A stretch of 64,000 nucleotides of DNA, from contig NZ_QXHD01000004.1 in the NCBI RefSeq assembly GCF_011009555.1, positions 4,593,528 to 4,657,527 of the forward strand. The letters run 5' to 3'. Made by a program: the position numbers and the translations under genes. This document shows, in pieces, positions 34,830 to 52,581 of the stretch. This stretch comes from Adonisia turfae CCMR0081 (GTDB lineage: Bacteria > Cyanobacteriota > Cyanobacteriia > Phormidesmidales > Phormidesmidaceae). How positions within the stretch are numbered: the stretch's first letter is position 1; the number at the start of each line of letters is the position of its first letter. Below the pieces are notes generated by a model that was not told where the DNA came from, made no database searches, and saw only the letters and a program-made list of their open reading frames with translations.

Positions 34830-37436
34830 TCACAACCAACTACCAATGAGCAGGTAATTGGCCCAAATATAGGGGGTTGTGTATCCGTAGTCGTGAATTA
34901 AGGACAACTGTGCCTGACGTACGGCATTAGCAATTGACATTCCTGGTTGAGTCAATAATTCGTAGAAACGGATCATGAATTGGGTGTTGGGTGTATCTTG
35001 GGCAATCCATAGGGTTGATAGGACGCTACGGGTGCCTGTTCTAGCCGCTAGGCCAGCCAATCCTAGGACTGCTCGTTTATCCCCCTGGGCGGTTTCACAG
35101 GCACTCAGCACAACAAGTTCAAGGGGGTGGACACCGCCTCGACTGCCTAGCCAAATCAGATTGTTTAGGTCTTGGGCTGAAATCTGTTCTTCGTAGGCGA
35201 CGACATAGGTTTCATCTGGATCAGAGCTAAAAACACCGTGGGTTTTCCAATGGATGGCGGAAAAATTACCTGTTTCTAACTGCTGCTGCAGATTTTGATG
35301 GGTAAAAGATTCATTGAGCAACACATTGCTGCTATCTACATATTGGGAAATACCGTCTAGCTCTTCTCTCACCTTAGCAATGGCAGGAAACTGGGTTTGT
35401 TTAATTTCCTGAGATAGCTCCATACCCCCCATGAGAACCCGCAGTGATGGATTGGCAGTCTCGGGTGTGAATATCTGGAGTCGGGGTGCGATCGCAACCG
35501 CATAACCCTTTTCAATCAAATACTGTTCGCCATCGTAGAGCACCGCCATGGGAATATTTCGTAAGGGCCCATCCAACACAAATACAAGGGTTTGGATGGA
35601 CGCCTGGTTCAGGTCCGTTGCCAAGGGCCGAATCAGCCAGTCATAGACGGTCTGGGCATCGGTCAATACTTCAGGTGTTTTACTGGGATTTGCTAAGTTT
35701 GCCTGCAAAGCTAGCAGGGTGGTGTCCGCTGTTTCTTTAGCAATCAGTGTCTCCCGGTACAGAGTTTTGCCAGGTAACTGGGCAATCATGGCGATGCGAT
35801 CGCTCAAAATGATTGGATACAGAATGGCAGTCTGGTCATCCTGCACTTGATCCACAGTTCTAGCATCAAGGGTGCAGCCCAGATAGTTTTCCAACTCCGC
35901 CAGCTGTAGCTGATCAACTGTCTGGATTGCCTCCTCTAAGGGCTGCGTCTGTTCGTCATGGTCTGAGAGCAACAGCTCAATATATTCACGATAAACGGGC
36001 TCCACATGATCGCGAAAGGAGAACTGCACATTTGTATTGACGCTCAGCAAGTTGTTACGAACCTGCTGCAAGCTTCTGATAGCCGATTTATAGCCCTGAA
36101 TTGCCCCTTGGCGATCGGTTTGCTGTTGTCGTAATCTGCCCAGTTGCCACTCCCAACGGTAGCGAATCTCAGGGGCATCTACGGTTTCTAATGTGAGCAA
36201 TGCTTGCTGTGTTAGATGCTGGGCATCGGCCCATTGCTGCATGTGTTCATACAGAGTCCCTAACTGCCCCAAGGCATAGGCTTCTGCCCGTTGATCCTTC
36301 AGGATACGAGCCTGCTGAATAGCTTTGGATAACAGCTTGGCAATTTCTTTTGGCTGTAGAGTTGTATGAATAACCGAGCTAGAACTCTCTGTGAGAGATG
36401 ATTGTACTTTCATCAAGCTCTCAGCCAGGTGAATATGGGCATGGATTGCAGACCTGCTAGCAGGTAATTGTCCAATGGCCCGCTGCACCTGGGGTAATAG
36501 CTGCATTGCCTGGGCTATTTGGTTACGCTCAACCCATAACCGAAACAAATTCAATTGAGCCAATGGAGAGTCATTGGTATTGATGGCTTGTTGATAGGCT
36601 GCTTGGGCAGACTGACTATGTTGCTCTGCCTCTGCCTGACGCCCAATGGTTCCATCGCGATGGGCCAGCAACCATTCTGTATTCCCTAACTCTAAAAAGA
36701 GATTACTTGTCTGACTGGGCTGGGTGTTTAATGAGATTCCCTCTTGCAGTAAGCTGAGAGCCGTGTCTAAGTCACCAATTTGTCGCAGCACACTACTTAA
36801 GTTGTATAGCCCTGCCGCTTTTAGATCATTGTTGGGCTGTTGTTGAATGCCTTGATAAACAGTTTCTAACAGTGTTTTGGCCTGGTGGTTGAGGCCCAGG
36901 TATTGTAATACGCGAGCCTGATTGATTTGTGCGATCGCGACCCCTGCTTCATCTCCTGCTTGTCTATAGGTTTGGGCTGCTGATCGCCAATGGGCTAAAG
37001 CAACATCGGCATCTCCTTGCAGCCACCGTAGTTTGCCTTGGGTATTAAGAACCTTGGCATAAATCACAGCCTGAGATGCTGAGATTGTCCGTAAATCAAC
37101 CGGATCAATTAGGCTCAGGCTATCCTGTAAGCTTTGACTAGCCTCATCTAACAGACCCAACTGCTGCTGAGCTAGAGAGAGATAGCTGAGGATAAGGGCC
37201 TGTCCCCAAGGATCGGTTTTGAAGGATAGGTTTGCTTGCTGCCACTGTTGAATTGCTTGGGCATAGTGTTCAATCTCATAATAGGCTAACCCTTTTTTTA
37301 GTAATTCTTGAGGAGACGCAGCTGCTAACGAGACATTTGTACGTCCCAGAGCAACATCCATAGCTGTTGGCATAACAGCTGGTGTCACCAAAGTAATCGC
37401 AAGGCTTATTAAGCCAATCAATAAACACCATCTCAT
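34830..37436 (-). CDS. exported CHAT-domain protein with TPR repeats
   Basis: An 868-residue protein. It starts with a signal peptide (MRWCLLIGLISLAITLVTPA), then has about ten tetratricopeptide-type helical repeats (about 45-500). The C-terminal third is a CHAT (caspase HetF-associated with TPRs) domain with catalytic His733 (IHWKTHGVFSSDP) and Cys780 (LVVLSACETAQGD), so it may be an active caspase-like protease outside the cytoplasm. It follows the haemagglutinin gene after 25 bases, and both are read from the same strand. Cyanobacteria often pair such CHAT proteins with two-partner-secretion proteins. The target is unknown. Confidence 0.88.
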   Translation of the reverse strand: MRWCLLIGLISLAITLVTPAVMPTAMDVALGRTNVSLAAASPQELLKKGLAYYEIEHYAQAIQQWQQANLSFKTDPWGQALILSYLSLAQQQLGLLDEASQSLQDSLSLIDPVDLRTISASQAVIYAKVLNTQGKLRWLQGDADVALAHWRSAAQTYRQAGDEAGVAIAQINQARVLQYLGLNHQAKTLLETVYQGIQQQPNNDLKAAGLYNLSSVLRQIGDLDTALSLLQEGISLNTQPSQTSNLFLELGNTEWLLAHRDGTIGRQAEAEQHSQSAQAAYQQAINTNDSPLAQLNLFRLWVERNQIAQAMQLLPQVQRAIGQLPASRSAIHAHIHLAESLMKVQSSLTESSSSVIHTTLQPKEIAKLLSKAIQQARILKDQRAEAYALGQLGTLYEHMQQWADAQHLTQQALLTLETVDAPEIRYRWEWQLGRLRQQQTDRQGAIQGYKSAIRSLQQVRNNLLSVNTNVQFSFRDHVEPVYREYIELLLSDHDEQTQPLEEAIQTVDQLQLAELENYLGCTLDARTVDQVQDDQTAILYPIILSDRIAMIAQLPGKTLYRETLIAKETADTTLLALQANLANPSKTPEVLTDAQTVYDWLIRPLATDLNQASIQTLVFVLDGPLRNIPMAVLYDGEQYLIEKGYAVAIAPRLQIFTPETANPSLRVLMGGMELSQEIKQTQFPAIAKVREELDGISQYVDSSNVLLNESFTHQNLQQQLETGNFSAIHWKTHGVFSSDPDETYVVAYEEQISAQDLNNLIWLGSRGGVHPLELVVLSACETAQGDKRAVLGLAGLAARTGTRSVLSTLWIAQDTPNTQFMIRFYELLTQPGMSIANAVRQAQLSLIHDYGYTTPYIWANYLLIGSWL

Positions 37437-37461: not shown

Positions 37462-40083
37462 TTACTTTTGTCTCCAACAGTTGCTATGGGATAGTCCAGG
37501 CGGTGACGTAGTTAAGATAACATCACCCGTATCGTTCACCAACCAACTCTCTGCTTCTGTAATCGCAGTAGACTCGGTCCAAGGATAGGGGAATCGTAAA
37601 TCGTCCAATACCTCAGCATCACTCAGAACATTGCTTCCTAAAGGCGTAATCCCACCTCGACCCGATGTGTAAAACTCTCCTTGGGCGGCGATTGCTGTGG
37701 GATCGCAACCCTGGGCAATTAGCTGAGAAGAATCTAACAAACCAGCTGGCAATGAGGTGACTCCCTGCTCAGGTTCAACACTAAGATTGTTGATCTCAAT
37801 CGTACCACTAATGCCAAATTCGGAGCTTGCTGTAATATCACTCAACGGTGTCCGTCTCGGACGAGGCCTGATGCCAAAAATATTTTGCGCCGTGATATCG
37901 ACATTTCCTCCCCGTCCTTGAAATGCATTTGCCGTGATGTCGCTGTTTTCTTCAGAGATCGCAATAATAAAGCCTTCTGGGGCATTAATAGAGATGTTGC
38001 CGCCATCACCGATTCCGTCTTCTATCCCTGCATTGGTAGAAATCAAACTGCCATTCCGTAAGAGCAGAAAATCTTCAATCTGTAAATTAATATTTCCCCC
38101 TGTATTGCCGTTAGTTGCTGCAGAGATTTCGCTACCATCTTTCAGAATTGCCGTATTAGCCGTGACTTGAATATCACCCCCCTCGCCCTCGCCCTGACTA
38201 TCAACGCTAATAGTGCCACCGTCTAGAATTTGCAGAGAATCAGTGATCACTCTGATACTGCCTCCTTCTCCTCTACCGGTATCATTGACAGCGCTAAAGA
38301 TCCCGCTGAGAGAGCCACCCGCAGATTCACCCTGAATCATCAGGTCATTGGTTTGAACAGTAATCCGACCAGCATCACCAATGCCGGCGGTACTGGCTCG
38401 AACAATGGCCCCATCCATGATGGTCAAGGTATCGCTGATCAGAGTGATATCTCCACCTTGACCTTCCGCAGGAGGGGCATTTGGAAACAGGGTTGAACGC
38501 TGCACGTCGGCCAGAATACCTCCAACTCGCTCATTATCTCCTGGAAAGTCTTTTATAAAGGTGTCTGAGCCATCCAATACAATATCCTGCGCTTCAATGG
38601 TGAGCGTTCCAGCATCGCCAAAGCCTGCAGTTGCTACTGAAATATTAGCTCCATTACGGACAGCTACCGTTTCTGCAATAATGGTGAGATTGCCACCGCG
38701 CCCCCTGGCTCCAACTTGCAGAGTACTGCCAATAGCACTAGGGAAACCTAGCTCATTCACTCCATCCACAATGACAGCATCACTAACCTGAATATTAATG
38801 TCCCCGGCAATGCCGTCACCCACAACAGTGGCACTGTTTGACGCACCATCATTGATGATTAGAGAACCGTTCCTAACAGTAATATCGACACCTCCTGACT
38901 CTCCTACTCCTCCTTGGCGAACGACACTATTAAAACCGCTGGGTAAAGGAACGCCGTTGCTATCTCTGCCTACACCAGAAACCAAAATCAAGTTTTGGAT
39001 ATCCAATGTGATTTTGCCAGTATTGCCTGCACTAAAGGATGTTGCAACAAGTTGTCCACCATTGATGAGGTGCAGTTCTTGACCCATAATGGTGATATTG
39101 CCACCATTACCCGTAGCACCCTGCAAAATCTCGTTGAATAGCTTTCCTTGATCAAGTGTGACCCTGCCGGTAGCATCAATGACAATATCCCCCGCCTGAC
39201 TGTCTGAGGTACCCGAGAAGAAATCGATGCCAGCCAATAGTCCTGTTCTAACTCCTATCAGGCTGACATCATGACCAGATACAACAATGTCACCGCCATT
39301 GTCAGCAGTCACATCAACCCTAGCATCGTTATTCATCGACACATTGCCGCGATCCACTTGACTTGGAAACGTCAGACGAATTTCCTCGTTATCTATGGCT
39401 AGTCCAAGGGTCCCAAGACCTGCTAAACCTCCTAGCTCAACCCGTCCTCCTACAGCTGATAATTGTCCCTCTGTGAGAGCAATGTCACCGCCAGCTAAAA
39501 TAAGGCTTTGAGATGGGTCAACTGCAACAGTCGCAGCACTTGTAATCGGTTGTGGGGTGTCAGTCCAATACGCTAACCCCACTGGCATACTGACGGTTAA
39601 TAGAGGAAAGTCTCCAGGGTTTGTTGCACTAAAGATTCGCTGATCGTCAAATTCAATCGCGTCAGCCGTTGTTGCTAAAAAGGAGCCGCCGATCTCCAGC
39701 TGTGCACTGGGTCCCAAAATAATGCCATTGGGATTGAGTAGAAAAAGATTAGCAGTACCGTTGGCTTGAATCAAACCATCAATATTAGATATAGAATCTC
39801 CCGTAACCCTGCCCAAAATAGTCTCTATTTGTAAACCATTATTAAAAATAGCTTGTCCGCCAGTTGGCACAGAAAACTCGCGGAAACTGTGAAATAAATT
39901 AGTCCCCCTAACGGTGCCGCCATTAATCGTACAGACATTACAATTTTCGGGTACGTTAGAGGGGATCGGCAATGTAGTATCGGGGGTAACTTGGGCAAGG
40001 GTTTGAGGCCCAAACTGCCCTACTAGCAATGGCACAATCGCCACACCACCAACAAGAACCTTTATTATTAAACGATGCATCAT
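37462..40083 (-). CDS. two-partner secretion haemagglutinin-type protein (TpsA-like)
   Basis: From ATG 40083 the protein has 873 residues. MMHRLIIKVLVGGVAIVPL up to QTLAQV is a signal peptide. Residues 30-170 form the filamentous-haemagglutinin N-terminal (TPS) domain with NGGTVRGTNLFHSFREFSV and GLIQANGTANLFLLNPNGII. The remainder is a repetitive beta-helix with many GGxITVxAxxxxLxxG-type turns. It should be secreted through a TpsB pore in the outer membrane; none is encoded nearby. The open frame begins at 40176, but only the later Met gives a proper signal. The C-terminal part carries Cys residues (QGCDPTAIA) as is usual in cyanobacterial members. Confidence 0.88.
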   Translation of the reverse strand: MMHRLIIKVLVGGVAIVPLLVGQFGPQTLAQVTPDTTLPIPSNVPENCNVCTINGGTVRGTNLFHSFREFSVPTGGQAIFNNGLQIETILGRVTGDSISNIDGLIQANGTANLFLLNPNGIILGPSAQLEIGGSFLATTADAIEFDDQRIFSATNPGDFPLLTVSMPVGLAYWTDTPQPITSAATVAVDPSQSLILAGGDIALTEGQLSAVGGRVELGGLAGLGTLGLAIDNEEIRLTFPSQVDRGNVSMNNDARVDVTADNGGDIVVSGHDVSLIGVRTGLLAGIDFFSGTSDSQAGDIVIDATGRVTLDQGKLFNEILQGATGNGGNITIMGQELHLINGGQLVATSFSAGNTGKITLDIQNLILVSGVGRDSNGVPLPSGFNSVVRQGGVGESGGVDITVRNGSLIINDGASNSATVVGDGIAGDINIQVSDAVIVDGVNELGFPSAIGSTLQVGARGRGGNLTIIAETVAVRNGANISVATAGFGDAGTLTIEAQDIVLDGSDTFIKDFPGDNERVGGILADVQRSTLFPNAPPAEGQGGDITLISDTLTIMDGAIVRASTAGIGDAGRITVQTNDLMIQGESAGGSLSGIFSAVNDTGRGEGGSIRVITDSLQILDGGTISVDSQGEGEGGDIQVTANTAILKDGSEISAATNGNTGGNINLQIEDFLLLRNGSLISTNAGIEDGIGDGGNISINAPEGFIIAISEENSDITANAFQGRGGNVDITAQNIFGIRPRPRRTPLSDITASSEFGISGTIEINNLSVEPEQGVTSLPAGLLDSSQLIAQGCDPTAIAAQGEFYTSGRGGITPLGSNVLSDAEVLDDLRFPYPWTESTAITEAESWLVNDTGDVILTTSPPGLSHSNCWRQK

Positions 40084-40231
40084 GCAAACGCTTACCCCCA
40101 TCCATTTCATAGTGCACTCAGGGTTGTAACAAAGAGTACAAAAGACAGATTCCAGCTCGAATATTTCTACCCACACAATACACTAAGGACTTAAAGTCCG
40201 TAAATTAACAGTATGTGCTTATAGATAAATG

Positions 40232-46336: not shown

Positions 46337-46444
46337 AACTTACTTTGCCAGCAGTGTTAGTTTGTCTGCATAGGTGGAGACAGTGTGTCTAACTTACTTT
46401 GCCAGCAGTGTTAGTTTGTCTGCATAGGTGGAGACAGTATATCT
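46337..46444. repeat. 54-base tandem duplication over the end of a gene
   Basis: Two 54-base units (46337-46390 and 46391-46444), each beginning AACTTACTTTGCCAGCAGTG, differ at very few bases. The unit covers the last codons and stop of the peptidoglycan-binding-like gene. Confidence 0.85.
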
Positions 46445-46741
46445 AACTCTGTAGAAAAACTGTTTTAAGGCCTCAGGAAAAAGCTGAATGTCAGTTTCCT
46501 GACTCCAAAAGGTGAGGGCATACCAGGTTTTAGGGCCCATAAAACCTGTTTCAATGACGCCATATTGATCTTGAAAAGCAATTAAAGCTTGCTGAGTTTG
46601 GTCGTCAAATTGACCTGTTAATCTGCCGTTATATAAACCCAGTTCGTGCAGCTTCCCTTGCAGTTGAATCACCATGGGTCCCTGGTCACCTACATACAGC
46701 GTTTCAAGCGGCAGGTCAATGTTCTTACCACCTGCTTTCAT
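46394..46741 (-). CDS. peptidoglycan-binding-domain (PG_binding_1) protein
   Basis: A 115-residue protein. VGDQGPMVIQLQGKLHELGLYNGRLTG followed by FDDQTQQALIAFQDQYG and GFMGPKTWYAL is one PG_binding_1 repeat (about residues 17-77). The C-terminal tail is basic and amphipathic. No signal peptide is present on it. The ATG overlaps the stop of the small upstream membrane-protein gene by ATGA, so both are translated together and the partner may anchor it. The stop codon lies in a duplicated 54-base unit. Confidence 0.8.
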   Translation of the reverse strand: MKAGGKNIDLPLETLYVGDQGPMVIQLQGKLHELGLYNGRLTGQFDDQTQQALIAFQDQYGVIETGFMGPKTWYALTFWSQETDIQLFPEALKQFFYRVRYTVSTYADKLTLLAK

Positions 46742-46884
46742 AGGTTAGAAACTCCTTCAGTCTCCTGTAATAACAATCTTGTGGGTGATAACGTCATTGC
46801 CCAATAAAGCACAGGGCAAAGCAGAATTATACATAGGGCCATCGTTGTAATGGGTCGCAGCCCCTGAGTTTGTTCAAGCAACAT
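46738..46884 (-). CDS. small single-pass membrane protein
   Basis: From ATG 46884 it has 48 residues: MLLEQTQGLRPITTMALCII, then a hydrophobic stretch LLCPVLYWAMT and a short polar tail. GGAGA lies ten bases upstream. It overlaps the next gene by four bases. It is not recognised. The frame is open to 47073, but I see no support for that extension. Confidence 0.55.
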   Translation of the reverse strand: MLLEQTQGLRPITTMALCIILLCPVLYWAMTLSPTRLLLQETEGVSNL

Positions 46885-47179
46885 TGTAAATTTCTCCAGA
46901 AGCGAATGTGCGGTTAAACTAGTGTGTGTTTGGACGCTAGCGCATTGTATTTCAAATGCAGATTGCTTTTGTGTTGTCCATAGGGGTCTCAAGAAATGAG
47001 AAGGGGAAATCTGCAAATATCTAAACTGTTTACATAAGTTTATGAATAAGTTGTGATGTCCTTGGGTGGGCACACGATAACGCCCCTATAGAATTGTTTG
47101 ATTAATTGCATGCCATATCCCAGGGCGTGCACAAGGCAACGCCCCTACAGGGTTATGCATTTTGGTTCGGGATTTTGTA
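46885..47179. other. intergenic region with two repeat units
   Basis: Two related stretches, GGGTGGGCACACGATAACGCCCC (from 47064) and GGGCGTGCACAAGGCAACGCCCC (from 47123), are typical GGGGCG-type cyanobacterial repeats. No gene. Confidence 0.5.
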
Positions 47180-47917
47180 TCAGTTTTCTAAGGTGATGAC
47201 TGGGCCTGAAAAGGGTGCGGTAGAGAGTTCTGTAGCATCGATAGACTGCAATAGCATATTCCAGTTTTCTTGGATTTGTGGGTCTTGGGGAGACTCTTGT
47301 AACTGCTCAGCCACTCTCGCTAGGGTGTCGTACCAAATGTTCGGGGCATCTACCTGAATTTGTTGGTCTCGCTCAGGGGTGCTGGCAACTCGTTGCACCG
47401 AACCTGTAATCGTTAAGTCGGGTTGGGCATTAATATTGTCGTGGCAATATAGCTGAAAATACCAACGATAGGGCTGATCTTCTGTTAAGGCATGCTCCGG
47501 TAGTGAGGGCACCGTCACGCTGACAATTCCGGGAGACTCAGGTAAGGTAAAACGAACATGGTAATGACGCTGCTGTTCTCCAGGCCATAGGAGTAAGGAA
47601 AATTCTCCATACTTTACCTGGTCTGCTGCAAACGGATTAAAAAATAAAAACGTGGGCTGGGCAGCTGTGGTCAAAACAGGATTTTCAACAGGAATAAGCG
47701 CCCGTAGGTCCTCATTAAAAGCATGACATGAGGATGCCAGTGGATTTAAGCCACCCCCTGGTGTTGTGCGATTGGGGGGTAGGGGGGTAGAGGGCGGTTC
47801 CGGAGGTCGCTGGCTAACGGTTGTCTGATTGATTGATTGAGCTAGGGCCGCTGTTATGGGAAAGTTCCAACTCCCTATTAACAGGCTAGATACGATAACG
47901 AGTTTCCAAACAGTCAT
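47180..47917 (-). CDS. DUF928 family exported protein
   Basis: From ATG 47917 the protein has 245 residues. Residues 1-22 (MTVWKLVIVSSLLIGSWNF...ALAQ) are a signal peptide; a Pro-rich stretch PPEPPSTPLPPNRTTPGGG follows. The pattern SSCHAFNEDLRALIPVEN...LFFNPFAADQ, then EDQPYRWYFQLYCHDN and a helical C-terminal, is that of DUF928, a cyanobacterial family of unknown function that regularly accompanies CHAT-CHASE2 and DUF1822 genes. It is the fourth gene of the leftward cluster and begins 80 bases after the CHAT-CHASE2 gene. Confidence 0.82.
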   Translation of the reverse strand: MTVWKLVIVSSLLIGSWNFPITAALAQSINQTTVSQRPPEPPSTPLPPNRTTPGGGLNPLASSCHAFNEDLRALIPVENPVLTTAAQPTFLFFNPFAADQVKYGEFSLLLWPGEQQRHYHVRFTLPESPGIVSVTVPSLPEHALTEDQPYRWYFQLYCHDNINAQPDLTITGSVQRVASTPERDQQIQVDAPNIWYDTLARVAEQLQESPQDPQIQENWNMLLQSIDATELSTAPFSGPVITLEN

Positions 47918-47997
47918 CTTAAATTCCGGGGGCAACAGAACAGATATAGGCGTATTTCAATTAAATTGCCAGAATCATCTATGGGTTGAAATTCTGA

Positions 47998-50418
47998 TCA
48001 GCGATGTTTTTTTGATAGTTCCATCATGAAGGCTACACAGCAGATGGCCAAAAATACGGAAAAAATGGCAGACATAAAGGGGAGCCATAAACCCTGGGTA
48101 ATCGCTGTCACGGACACTCGTTCTAAGCCCCAGTATAGAGAGATGAGGCCAAAGGTCAATCCTAGGGGGATGATGAGTTTGAACGATAATGGGGGTCGGT
48201 TATATAACCAGCTGGTAAATAGGCTGCCAAGGAGGGACCATCCTAAAATCCAAAGACCATCTAAGCAGGGTAGATTTTGCCAATGGGGTAGTTTACCGAT
48301 CAGCGGTCGTTGGTCTAGAGCGGCACTAAGCAGCTGACTGACCATGTGGCTGTGGACCCAAACACCGGGCATTTCTCCATAGGGAGTATTAACGTTATCC
48401 TTGGCGACCGCAGCGGTATAGCCGACTAATACTAGGCGATCGCGCACCATATCTGGGTTCAGCTGTCCTGTTAATACTGAATCGAGGGAGACTGCTTGCC
48501 CTGGTTGAGCCGCCCTGTAGTTCAGCATGAGTTGGCTACTGAGACCGTCCAGGTTTTGATAAGCGGCAAATCGACGGGACAGGGGGCGAAGAGTAATGGC
48601 ACCAAATTGCCAGTGGTTATTCTCGTTAGTTTTTAGTGGTGTAACACCTGCTTGGGATAGGTACCGGTAGGCGAGCTGAAAACTCAAACTATAGGGTGTA
48701 GCACAACTGGGGCGGGTGGAAACTAAGGTTGGCGAATAGGAAATCAGATGGCGGCGAACCACATTATTGACTTGTTGCAATGTCAGGGCAGTGGCTACTG
48801 CGTTGGGTTGGCCCTGGGAGATTTGTAAAGGAGAGTCCAACAGAAAATCACTAAACCCCACCTGGGAAATCTGCTGCTCGTCTGAGAACTCAGGGGGTGA
48901 ACCATAATCCTGTCCAGGCATATCGTAGGCGCAGACAGTGAATAGATTAGAATGCTGGCGAAACTGATCGATCAATGCCTGTCGGCCTGTTCCCCTGGGG
49001 CGAAATCGATGCATATCAAATGCGATCGCAACCGGCTCAAATTCCTGTAGTACATCCACCGTTTGGGCTAGTACCGCATCTGAGAGGGGATATCCTCCTA
49101 ATTCATCCAAATCTGTCTCGTTGACCTCCACCAATAAAATGCGAGAATCAATGGTTTCAGCGGGTCGCGATCGCAACAAATGATCGTACGCTGCCAGCTC
49201 ATAGGGTTGCAACCAACCCAAATGCTGCACAATCAAGACCATGATTGTCACCACCAAACTAAGCCAAACCGGTTGCAACCAGTTAAATCGGTGGGATGCA
49301 GTGGGTGCCGCCGGTAGGGCAGCGGGTTTACCCTGCAGCGTATGCCAGTCAGGGGGAGGGGTGAGAAAGTTTTGATAGATGACCGGCAACCAACTGGCAC
49401 AGGGATACTGATGCTCCAGCCCCTGTAGTCGTTCCCTTGCCTGGCGCGCCGACAAATACAGCGATTCTCCATGGGCAAAGGCTTCTAAAAAGTATTTGAG
49501 AAACGCCTCTGCCACCTGATCGATCACAGGTTCTCGCATGACGATCATTTGGGGAATCGATAGCTGCTGCAACGCCTGCACCAGCCCCAATCCATCACAG
49601 GAATTAAAAATTGCTAGCTGCAAGCCTTGATCAATGGCTTTGCGCAAGCCATAGCGTAGCTCCGACAGGGTAAGGCTATCGGTGGGGTTAATAAAAATCC
49701 GTCCCTGGTCCCGATAGGTCTCGCTATGGCCAGCAAAGAATAAAATATCCCAGGGCGTTTCCCAAAGACGATCGTTTAACTGTTGGCGATCAGGCTCCAC
49801 TAAAAATGAGACGTCTGCCTGGGGTAGTCCAGCCAGTAAACGCTGATCGGCTTCTATATTAATACCGTGGCTATGGCCCAAAATAGCCAAGATTCTGACC
49901 GGATGAGATACGGTTGACTTAACAGAAGGACGTACGGCCTCATATTCGGGGGTGCTCAGGGCCATTTCCGCATAGGGATAGCGATCAAAGAAATCCCATT
50001 CATGCCAGGGCAGTTTCTGAACATCAACATTCTGAGTGCGAATCAACAATCGAATGGTGTCATCCCGGCTCAGTTCTTCTCGCAAACGCCGATCAATGGG
50101 TTGAAAAGACTCAGAATTTAACCACGTTTGAAACCAGTCACATAGTACCTGGGCTGACTGTTGACAATCCACCAGACGCTGATTGATAAATCCTTTGTGA
50201 ATAATCTTGTGGCCTTTGATCCGTAACGGCATACCCAAGGGGCGATAGGCATCCTGCCAGTGGCGGTGCAGGTGGGCCAACATCCCTGGATTGGGGGGTA
50301 AAAATCCTTTTACTTTTAAGGCATGCGGTTCATTTTCAGCCTGAATTTCCAGGGTTGTCCGAAACCCTGAGGTAGCCAAATCTCCATCTAACTCTAGAAC
50401 TACCCACCGTCCAGCCAT
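47998..50418 (-). CDS. CHAT-CHASE2 membrane protein
   Basis: An 806-residue protein. Residues 1-360 contain a CHAT protease domain with catalytic His231 (DILFFAGHSETYRDQG) and Cys274 (LAIFNSCDGLGL). A membrane helix (about 387-410) precedes a CHASE2 sensory domain outside the membrane (about 415-690), and three C-terminal membrane helices close it. So an extracytoplasmic signal could control a cytoplasmic caspase-like protease. No kinase or cyclase output is present. It lies between DUF1822 and DUF928. The gene has a HIP1-like site near its middle. Confidence 0.88.
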   Translation of the reverse strand: MAGRWVVLELDGDLATSGFRTTLEIQAENEPHALKVKGFLPPNPGMLAHLHRHWQDAYRPLGMPLRIKGHKIIHKGFINQRLVDCQQSAQVLCDWFQTWLNSESFQPIDRRLREELSRDDTIRLLIRTQNVDVQKLPWHEWDFFDRYPYAEMALSTPEYEAVRPSVKSTVSHPVRILAILGHSHGINIEADQRLLAGLPQADVSFLVEPDRQQLNDRLWETPWDILFFAGHSETYRDQGRIFINPTDSLTLSELRYGLRKAIDQGLQLAIFNSCDGLGLVQALQQLSIPQMIVMREPVIDQVAEAFLKYFLEAFAHGESLYLSARQARERLQGLEHQYPCASWLPVIYQNFLTPPPDWHTLQGKPAALPAAPTASHRFNWLQPVWLSLVVTIMVLIVQHLGWLQPYELAAYDHLLRSRPAETIDSRILLVEVNETDLDELGGYPLSDAVLAQTVDVLQEFEPVAIAFDMHRFRPRGTGRQALIDQFRQHSNLFTVCAYDMPGQDYGSPPEFSDEQQISQVGFSDFLLDSPLQISQGQPNAVATALTLQQVNNVVRRHLISYSPTLVSTRPSCATPYSLSFQLAYRYLSQAGVTPLKTNENNHWQFGAITLRPLSRRFAAYQNLDGLSSQLMLNYRAAQPGQAVSLDSVLTGQLNPDMVRDRLVLVGYTAAVAKDNVNTPYGEMPGVWVHSHMVSQLLSAALDQRPLIGKLPHWQNLPCLDGLWILGWSLLGSLFTSWLYNRPPLSFKLIIPLGLTFGLISLYWGLERVSVTAITQGLWLPFMSAIFSVFLAICCVAFMMELSKKHR

Positions 50419-50597
50419 AGTCTTTTGGGCACCACTGACCTCTAATATAATGGGTCAGTCAAATTCAACCGTGATTGTGCCACGTACATATAAGATTCTT
50501 GCCATTGCTGATGTAGGGGATACATCGATCTGGTAGTATCGCTCTAAATCAGTATCTTTCAGATTACATCCTGCCGAGACTCAGCAATGGCAGATTT

Positions 50598-51524
50598 TTA
50601 AATGGCAAATTGCTCGGTCAGTATTGACTGGTCAAGACTAATTTGGACGGCAAAATTTTCACCCGGTTCAGCACTAAATTGAAACTCTAACCCTTCACTT
50701 TGGCGACCTTCTGCTTGCAAAACCGGTGTTTTGGCCTGATCCATCACCATCAAATGTAGAGACGGCGGTAAATGGGCCTGTTGCCCTGCTGGATAAAGCT
50801 CCACGGTAATGTCAAAGGCAACACTGTCATCAGCCGGGGCAATACCCACCAAAAATAAGACCTGAGTGCCTGGCGTAAAGGTTAAAAATTTACCTCGTTT
50901 AACACCTTTGGCCACTTGCTCCATTAATTCTTGATGCGCCAACGAATTTCTAAAACTATAGGCGGGCATCTGGGTTTGCCAGTCAGCAAAAATCTGTTCG
51001 AGGCTGGCCCAGCCCTCATCGACTACATTGTCTAACCACTGTAGCAATGCGGATGGCTGCTCCTTTGGAGCTGTCTGCTTCACTACATTTTGAGCCAGGT
51101 AAGCGGGGAACTGATCCATGGGCTGTAGTTGCTGGGTTGTTACAGGTGTCTCTGACGGTTGAGTCAGAAATCCCAGCAGTGTAGCCTCCGTTAACTCACT
51201 ATCCAGCTGAACAAAGACATAGCCCGCGCGATCTGTCCACACATCTTCCGAGATAGTCCAGGCAGTTTGTTCGGGTAACACTGGGCAACACTCTAAACGA
51301 CCGACCCCAGTTACCCACAAATCTGTAGCATTACTGAGCACCTGTAATGTAGGATTCCAGCTTATACTTTGCTCTAGGTCAGTCTCTATACCAAGACAGG
51401 TCAGATAAAATCTCACGGTTTGTAAACTCAGGGTGTTGAGATAAACCTGTTTTGCCTTTTGAGGATCGCTGTGATGCTGATAAAATTGCTGGGCTATTTG
51501 GTGAAAACGGTCAGTCAGCGGCAT
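50598..51524 (-). CDS. DUF1822 family protein
   Basis: From ATG 51524 it has 308 residues; ATG 51557 and GTG 51587 are alternative starts. The family features are an N-terminal FHQIAQQFYQHHSDPQKAKQ-VYLNTLS helix pair, VTGVGRLECCPVL, then GYVFVQLDSELTEATLLGF, and a C-terminal beta-sandwich (TVELYPAGQQAHLPPSL). DUF1822 is restricted to cyanobacteria and has no known function. It seems soluble. It lies between a sigma-like gene and CHAT-CHASE2. Confidence 0.8.
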   Translation of the reverse strand: MPLTDRFHQIAQQFYQHHSDPQKAKQVYLNTLSLQTVRFYLTCLGIETDLEQSISWNPTLQVLSNATDLWVTGVGRLECCPVLPEQTAWTISEDVWTDRAGYVFVQLDSELTEATLLGFLTQPSETPVTTQQLQPMDQFPAYLAQNVVKQTAPKEQPSALLQWLDNVVDEGWASLEQIFADWQTQMPAYSFRNSLAHQELMEQVAKGVKRGKFLTFTPGTQVLFLVGIAPADDSVAFDITVELYPAGQQAHLPPSLHLMVMDQAKTPVLQAEGRQSEGLEFQFSAEPGENFAVQISLDQSILTEQFAI

Positions 51525-51621
51525 CCTAAATTTTGTTGGCTGGCAGTGAGTGGTCATTGTTCTAGGGTTGAGTAGGGGTGATCGCACAGTGGTTGAAAGA
51601 AACGGAGAGTGGGGAGTGGGG

Positions 51622-52278
51622 CTAGTTGGCGTGGGTGGTTAAGTACTCTTTAAATTTGGGGGCAAATTTGGTTAGACAACGTAAGTAGAAGGAGCTGAGG
51701 GTGACGACTTTAACCCCTAGTTCATCGGAGATTTCTTTCCAGGAATAGCCACCTAAAAATCTGAGGGCGAGATGCTGAAAGTTGGCTGCGGGTTTGTTGC
51801 GGATATGGGTTTCCTTAAACAAACCATCGCGGTCGTCACGAATGCACTGGAGCACTTCTTCAGATAGGGATGGGTTGGATTGCGATCGCAACTCCAGCGA
51901 CTCCTGTTTATCCAAAGCATCTAAAGTAATGCGCTTGACTTGAGAACGATCCATTCCTTTAGGCGCAACCGGCATAAAATCACGACTCGCCTCAATAAAG
52001 AATCGCTTTCTCATCAGAAAATTGGCCCATTGCAGCACTTCTAACTCTGGGTTATAACGGCTAATATCCTCACATAGATAGAGAAACAATTGCTGTTGCG
52101 CCTCCGCATAAATATCCTCATACAGGCCATAAAACTGACCTGAATAGGGACGCACTAACTTCTTTGAGCGATATATAGTATCGACCAAACGAGCCAATGC
52201 ACACTGCCGTTCGGGGGTTTGGGGAGGATGCTGCTGCGCCTCTATAGCCAATTGTTTAAGCTGTTGATCTAAATCCAT
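51622..52278 (-). CDS. sigma-70-family-like RNA polymerase sigma factor (cyanobacterial CHAT-linked type)
   Basis: A 218-residue protein. Residues about 25-105 resemble region 2 of sigma factors (LVDTIYRSKKLVRPYSGQFY..YAEAQQQLFLYLCEDISRYNP and VLQWANFLMRKRF). Residues about 165-210 form a helix-turn-helix like region 4 (LALRFLGGYSWKEISDELGVKVVTLSSFYLRCL). It may direct polymerase to the following genes. It is the first gene of the leftward cluster. The DNA-contact residues look divergent, so a non-canonical or regulatory role is possible. Confidence 0.72.
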   Translation of the reverse strand: MDLDQQLKQLAIEAQQHPPQTPERQCALARLVDTIYRSKKLVRPYSGQFYGLYEDIYAEAQQQLFLYLCEDISRYNPELEVLQWANFLMRKRFFIEASRDFMPVAPKGMDRSQVKRITLDALDKQESLELRSQSNPSLSEEVLQCIRDDRDGLFKETHIRNKPAANFQHLALRFLGGYSWKEISDELGVKVVTLSSFYLRCLTKFAPKFKEYLTTHAN

Positions 52279-52581
52279 GCGTCCTATAAGCCCAGAGGAT
52301 TAGGGAGTAAGACCGACCAAACAAAGCCCTCAGGCCAATGTATCGCCTAGCCTACCTAAAGGCATCTCAAAAATAAAGGCGCTAAATTTTATCGATTTCG
52401 AATTATGTTACGAATATTTACATTCGTGCATCCAGGGTGCCCAGATCTGTAGAGAGCGATCGCACCTTTCAGGTGTTCACAATACCTCAAGTTCTTATTG
52501 GGTTTGAGAGGTTGAGATCACGCCTTCTATAAGATGGGGTCGTTCATGAATCTGGATATCAGATGCTCCTCATTCGCCACA
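52279..52581. other. promoter region of the sigma/CHAT cluster
   Basis: No gene. GAGCGATCGCACC (HIP1) near 52456 is the only clear motif. CACACTACCGTGTGTG at the end of the receiver gene is a short palindrome. Confidence 0.45.

Follow-up and report, generated by a model that had tools for sequence, protein, structure and literature searches.

The locus and its conserved gene order

We analyzed a 64,000-nucleotide stretch of the genome of Adonisia turfae CCMR0081 (the window), in which four genes on the minus strand, from position 52278 down to 47180, encode a sigma-like factor, a DUF1822 protein, a membrane protein that joins a CHAT domain to a CHASE2 domain (CHAT-CHASE2) and a predicted exported DUF928 protein (Table 1). 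The preliminary description of this locus listed five to six consecutive leftward genes, and their order, coordinates and strand agree with our analysis; the Pfam matches to DUF1822, CHASE2, CHAT and DUF928 lie well above cut-off. The sigma/DUF1822/CHASE2-caspase core is already published. Kaur et al. (2021, eLife, PMC8195603) described EACC2-caspase proteins with variable C-termini, CHASE2 among them, encoded beside extracytoplasmic function (ECF) sigma factors and DUF1822; they proposed autopeptidase activation, with sigma as one output. To this we add a general genomic pairing of DUF928 with CHASE2, its likely partner, a genomic context of two-partner secretion (TPS) exoproteins and CHAT-TPR proteins, and, for DUF1822, a predicted non-TPR fold and fusions to STAND NTPases. 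We found no published account of the general pairing, of this context or of the DUF1822 findings in the open-access library searched, where DUF928 is named in one paper and DUF1822 in two.

To sample conservation, a CHAT-CHASE2 alignment was scanned against one genome per species (84,980 species) and the best 78 loci were kept, all of them cyanobacterial by record title. DUF1822 lay directly upstream of CHAT-CHASE2 in 62 of 76 loci (33/41 after loci were collapsed at 70% identity) and DUF928 directly downstream in 67 of 74 (37/42 after collapse). A recognized sigma-like gene, counted if on the same strand and ≤4.5 kb upstream, was present in 41 of 72 loci (27/41 after collapse). Lack of a conserved neighborhood in other genomes had been set beforehand as a result that would refute the preliminary reading, and the neighborhood is conserved. 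Median gaps within the unit were 28, 96 and 60 bases. The arrangement of DUF1822 and DUF928 around CHAT-CHASE2 is far beyond chance. The A. turfae genome carries at least four paralogous clusters, and the DUF1822-to-DUF928 order recurs on plasmids in Nostoc sp. UHCC 0302 and Anabaena cylindrica, where the gene at the sigma position carries the annotation "hypothetical".

The CHAT-CHASE2 polypeptide matched both CHASE2 (E = 2.8e-54) and CHAT (E = 1.2e-12) in Pfam. Its His231/Cys274 dyad, described earlier as intact, was invariant in all 79 homologues compared, and the protein is a putative cysteine protease. One hydrophobic segment lies at residues ~384-402 and others at ~744-799, a layout that fits a CHAT domain in the cytoplasm and a CHASE2 domain outside; the earlier expectation, a membrane-bound protein whose caspase-like domain lies in the cytosol and whose sensor faces outward, agrees with this predicted topology. 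Residues 1-345 aligned in ten diverse members, His231 and Cys274 again being invariant, and one of the ten (L062) lacks CHASE2; the C-terminus is variable, and neither L062 nor a further locus, L046, gave a Pfam CHASE2 match. The protein resembles the EACC2-caspase systems in its constant N-terminal region and caspase-like domain, in its CHASE2-type C-terminus with transmembrane helices and in its sigma and DUF1822 neighbors. The N-terminal domain is named from its position and from Kaur et al. (2021). Unlike the present locus, the published systems come with no mention of DUF928 or of the TPS/CHAT-TPR context, and DUF1822 is called a TPR protein there. A Trichodesmium protein that joins a metacaspase at its N-terminus to a CHASE2 receptor at its C-terminus, described in a 2012 survey, is treated in PMC3501461 and PMC2853523. 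In the portions of these papers that deal with it, this protein is similar in having a cytosolic caspase-like domain and an external CHASE2, with one transmembrane segment before it and three after, and differs in that they describe no sigma, DUF1822 or DUF928 neighbors.

The AlphaFold2 model of the window's DUF1822 protein (predicted local distance difference test score 90) is a mixed alpha/beta structure with a strand-rich C-terminal domain. In contrast to the TPR label of Kaur et al. (2021), the model contains no TPR array. DUF1822 is therefore predicted not to be a TPR protein, which we treat as a correction of its description and not as a defining feature of the system; a fold search of DUF1822 against the PDB gave no match at E ≤ 0.001. 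At three loci an NB-ARC/NACHT STAND NTPase is fused to the C-terminal part of DUF1822 and replaces the sigma-DUF1822 pair. We infer that the C-terminal domain of DUF1822 may be an adaptor that connects the CHAT protein to a partner of exchangeable type.

The sigma-like gene stands where it had been placed, at the head of the cluster, although its scores fall short of profile cut-offs: 19 bits against Pfam sigma region 4 (cut-off 25.7), and 27 bits (2.9e-6, residues 39-204) against the NCBIfam sigma70-ECF model TIGR02937 (cut-off 42.9). A profile of 25 relatives matched the ECF factor SigK in the PDB at 0.0072, not as the top match. The sigma position holds two types of protein, a short one like that of the window and a long one with clear sigma regions, of which one (locus L038) scored 94.5 bits against sigma70-ECF. 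All ten DUF1822 genes of the A. turfae genome have a same-strand gene just upstream; six of these partners are of the short or long sigma-like types, and the other four are longer proteins whose similarity to sigma factors is borderline at most. Upstream of the window's sigma-like gene we found a candidate promoter-like pair, TTYGTAAM-13-GAYARAATT, whose blocks and spacing are both kept in four orthologous loci and which has its sole exact match in the window there. A generic promoter and terminator scan gave nothing above shuffled sequences.

Table 1. Features of the four-gene unit, associated genes and related fusions.
Feature	Coordinates	Strand	Evidence or remark
Candidate promoter-like pair TTYGTAAM-13-GAYARAATT, 5' of sigma-like gene	52385..52414	-	Four orthologous loci
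Diverged sigma-70/ECF-like factor (218 aa), at head of unit	51622..52278	-	sigma70-ECF TIGR02937 below cut-off; same position in relatives
DUF1822, predicted cytosolic adaptor/regulator, 329 aa	50598..51587	-	PF08852, E = 1.2e-52
CHAT-CHASE2 membrane protein, 806 aa, putative cysteine protease (H231, C274), C-terminal CHASE2 sensor	47998..50418	-	PF12770 and PF05226
DUF928, predicted exported protein, 251 aa	47180..47935	-	PF06051, 1.5e-36; signal-like N-terminus
Small membrane protein, lineage-specific, outside unit	46738..47073	-	Relative found in sister genome G027 only
Peptidoglycan (PG)-binding-like protein, lineage-specific, outside unit	46394..46741	-	PF01471 (PG_binding_1), 1.7e-14
TPS exoprotein, 904 aa, associated, not core	37462..40176	-	PF05860, 1.7e-55
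CHAT-TPR protein, 868 aa, signal-like N-terminus, associated, not core	34830..37436	-	CHAT 3.3e-52 and TPR repeats
STAND NTPase-DUF1822 C-terminal fusions	L072:8079-9950, L187:12107-14029, L188:12280-14076		Directly upstream of CHAT-CHASE2

DUF928, CHASE2 and the envelope context

The window's DUF928 protein has a hydrophobic, signal-like N-terminal segment at residues 12-30, in line with the signal peptide noted earlier. We counted the neighbors of 46 DUF928 genes from eight genomes, 17 of them in the A. turfae genome and 29 in other genomes of the class. Thirty-one of the 46 lay ≤3 kb from a CHASE2 gene (0.64 expected). The pairing held both in A. turfae (15/17, 0.32 expected) and in the other genomes (16/29, 0.33 expected). 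Among 30 loci fetched around DUF928 genes, eight of them from A. turfae, CHASE2 was within ~1.5 kb in 20. In A. turfae the CHASE2 proteins near DUF928 bear guanylate cyclase, SpoIIE, histidine kinase, GGDEF-EAL, GGDEF and TIR domains; DUF928 thus follows the CHASE2 sensor and not the CHAT output.

Co-divergence across loci was also strongest for DUF928 and CHASE2 (rho 0.70). It was 0.41 both for sigma with DUF1822 and for DUF1822 with the CHAT half of CHAT-CHASE2, and -0.03 for sigma with CHASE2, a pattern that is expected from a chain sigma-DUF1822-CHAT/CHASE2-DUF928. DUF928 is thus a likely partner of CHASE2, and the two may be in physical contact. Its best PDB match, the MtxA C-terminal domain, was marginal (E 9.9e-4, template modelling scores 0.35/0.47), and we did not use it to assign function. 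A 2017 survey of WD40 proteins (PMC5587647) recorded one CHASE2-DUF928 neighborhood, beside WD40 proteins of Nostoc punctiforme and in one of seven species; the pairing is the same, but it was a single cluster there and is general here. The ligands of CHASE2 are still called unclear (PMC10581220). The sensor is widespread in bacteria, and a small exported protein encoded alongside it far beyond chance, whatever the receptor's output, offers a concrete and testable partner.

The genomic context of DUF928 extends to surface secretion. Twenty-seven of the 46 DUF928 genes lay ≤12 kb from a TPS exoprotein gene (2.7 expected), a CHAT-TPR or TPS gene was within ~1.5 kb in 13 of the 30 fetched loci, and TPS, CHAT-TPR or TpsB-like genes occurred in 21 of the 32 dereplicated CHAT-CHASE2 loci that extend 6 kb or more to both sides; since TPS and CHAT genes also cluster together, these neighbor counts are not fully independent. 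In the window, a TPS exoprotein gene and a CHAT-TPR gene, the product of the latter having a hydrophobic N-terminus, lie on the same strand ~7 kb downstream of DUF928, and at the orthologous locus L186 such genes follow DUF928 with one gene between. What does tie these loci to the envelope is their association with TPS exoproteins and with secreted CHAT-TPR proteins, neither of which the preliminary description included.

A proposed relay and its alternatives

We tentatively favor, at a little below even chance, the view that the unit is a transmembrane relay. It would be one form, with a sigma/protease output, of a wider surface-sensing module that cyanobacteria build from CHASE2 and DUF928. 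In this relay exported DUF928 would partner the extracytoplasmic CHASE2 domain and report the state of the cell surface, probably in connection with the TPS exoproteins and secreted CHAT-TPR proteins whose genes are often close by. The signal would cross the membrane and switch the putative cytosolic CHAT cysteine protease, for which proteolysis of a partner is suggested by analogy with the related CHAT protein HetF. CHAT would act on or through DUF1822, which in the cytosol would serve the neighboring sigma-like factor as adaptor or regulator, and this factor would then alter transcription of a presumed regulon. What the data show is gene order, conservation, the catalytic dyad, predicted topology, pairing statistics and co-divergence; contact of DUF928 with CHASE2, protease activity and its substrate, control of the sigma-like factor and the regulon belong to the proposal. 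In Fec/Fpv-type cell-surface signaling, a surface state is likewise passed by a membrane relay to proteolysis and sigma release. The likeness is one of working principle, an analogy without membership: none of the cluster proteins was identified as a FecR-type anti-sigma factor or a TonB receptor, and the protease here is caspase-like.

Several observations weigh against the relay. Fifteen of the 46 DUF928 genes lie >3 kb from any CHASE2 gene, DUF1822 is not directly upstream of 14 of the 76 CHAT-CHASE2 genes, and 17 DUF1822-bearing loci have no recognized sigma-like gene ≤4.5 kb upstream. For the short type the assignment to sigma factors is weak, its matches being below cut-off; hhalign gave no join between the short and long types, so that their homology is not supported by this method. 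The motif conserved ahead of the four orthologous sigma-like genes showed no enrichment before TPS, CHAT-TPR, DUF928 or DUF1822 genes, and we rejected a promoter common to the sigma and TPS genes for lack of enrichment 5' of the latter. Physical linkage could account for part of the co-divergence, and the relay is drawn from sequence data and structure models.

Another explanation is that the cluster is a conflict or programmed-death system, in which a signal of invasion or damage would make the caspase-like domain activate itself, with the sigma-like factor driving a suicide or defense program. Kaur et al. (2021) proposed this for the same architecture in a study of death and immunity, and both the STAND NTPase-DUF1822 fusions and a TIR-CHASE2 protein beside DUF928 elsewhere in the A. 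turfae genome are consistent with it. However, PADLOC-DB models gave no match at E ≤ 0.01 to the four core proteins or to the CHAT-TPR protein, CHASE2-DUF928 pairs occur mostly with ordinary signaling outputs, and the multiple paralogous clusters, the exported component and the TPS/CHAT-TPR context favor surface sensing; we consider such a system unlikely. It is also rather improbable that two independent units, a sigma-DUF1822 regulator and a CHASE2-DUF928 sensor, are merely stacked with no signal between them. Four of the ten DUF1822 genes of A. turfae have an upstream partner but no CHAT-CHASE2 after them, DUF928-CHASE2 pairs are widespread without DUF1822, and sigma does not co-diverge with CHASE2. 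On the other hand, DUF1822 usually lies directly upstream of CHAT-CHASE2 and co-diverges with its CHAT half, and a single polypeptide links CHAT to CHASE2.

HetF, a CHAT membrane protein of Anabaena/Nostoc, is reported to cleave PatU3 (reviewed in PMC12288457), a precedent for a specific protease among CHAT membrane proteins. An orthologue of it would act in cell division or differentiation. CHAT-CHASE2 shares with HetF a CHAT domain in a cyanobacterial membrane protein with transmembrane segments, and it gave a weak, local NCBIfam HetF match over the catalytic region (residues 198-277, E = 9e-4, 17.6-19.2 bits against the NF045509 cut-off of 1200). In contrast, the reported layout of HetF is CHAT, transmembrane segments and TPR, without CHASE2, and a separate candidate in the same genome (C10:438225) scored 631 bits, itself below the 1200-bit cut-off, compared to 19 for CHAT-CHASE2. 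We therefore rejected orthology, which is very improbable; the two proteins are non-orthologous.

Beyond the relay itself, DUF928 might be a general extracytoplasmic partner of cyanobacterial CHASE2, as ligand or co-receptor, that couples assemblies of TPS exoproteins and secreted CHAT-TPR proteins at the surface to outputs in the cytosol that can be exchanged for one another: cyclases, kinases, cyclic di-GMP enzymes, TIR domains or, here, a CHAT protease acting via DUF1822 on sigma. We regard this wider proposal as possible but doubtful. Two uncharacterized families, DUF928 and DUF1822, acquire specific proposed roles, and cyanobacterial caspase-like proteins would be linked with secretion at the surface and with transcription, not with death alone.

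Neighboring genes and related loci

The preliminary description had suggested that the two genes downstream of DUF928 extend the unit to the cell wall. Neither is conserved, and we rejected both as members for this reason. The small membrane gene had a relative only in the closest sister genome (G027); no intact copy of the PG-binding gene was found even in that sister genome, and the paralogous clusters of A. turfae lack both. At its place in the sister genome (L184:7670-7882), the PG-binding gene is reduced to its last 17 codons, repeated in tandem as four copies of 54 bp.

Behind other genes of the CHAT-CHASE2 type, the place of DUF928 is taken by small proteins that have signal-like N-termini and match nothing in Pfam (L048:4208-4903, L049:4200-4895, L046:4576-5415); they are possible alternative exported partners. 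CHASE2 itself is fused to AAA_35 at L050:3063-5366, and on a Planktothrix plasmid a separate AAA-like gene lies upstream of CHASE2-DUF928 (L064:2090-5733). The TIR-CHASE2 protein of A. turfae (L027:1-2766, C11:5284014 region) is encoded near a DUF928 gene and a CHAT gene, and PADLOC models of TIR proteins, ThsB among them, match its TIR part. The A. turfae genome (G000, contigs C10 and C11; 8.66 Mb) is unusually rich in caspase-like and surface proteins, with 59 matches to CHAT, 27 to CHASE2 and 36 places that encode TPS exoproteins.

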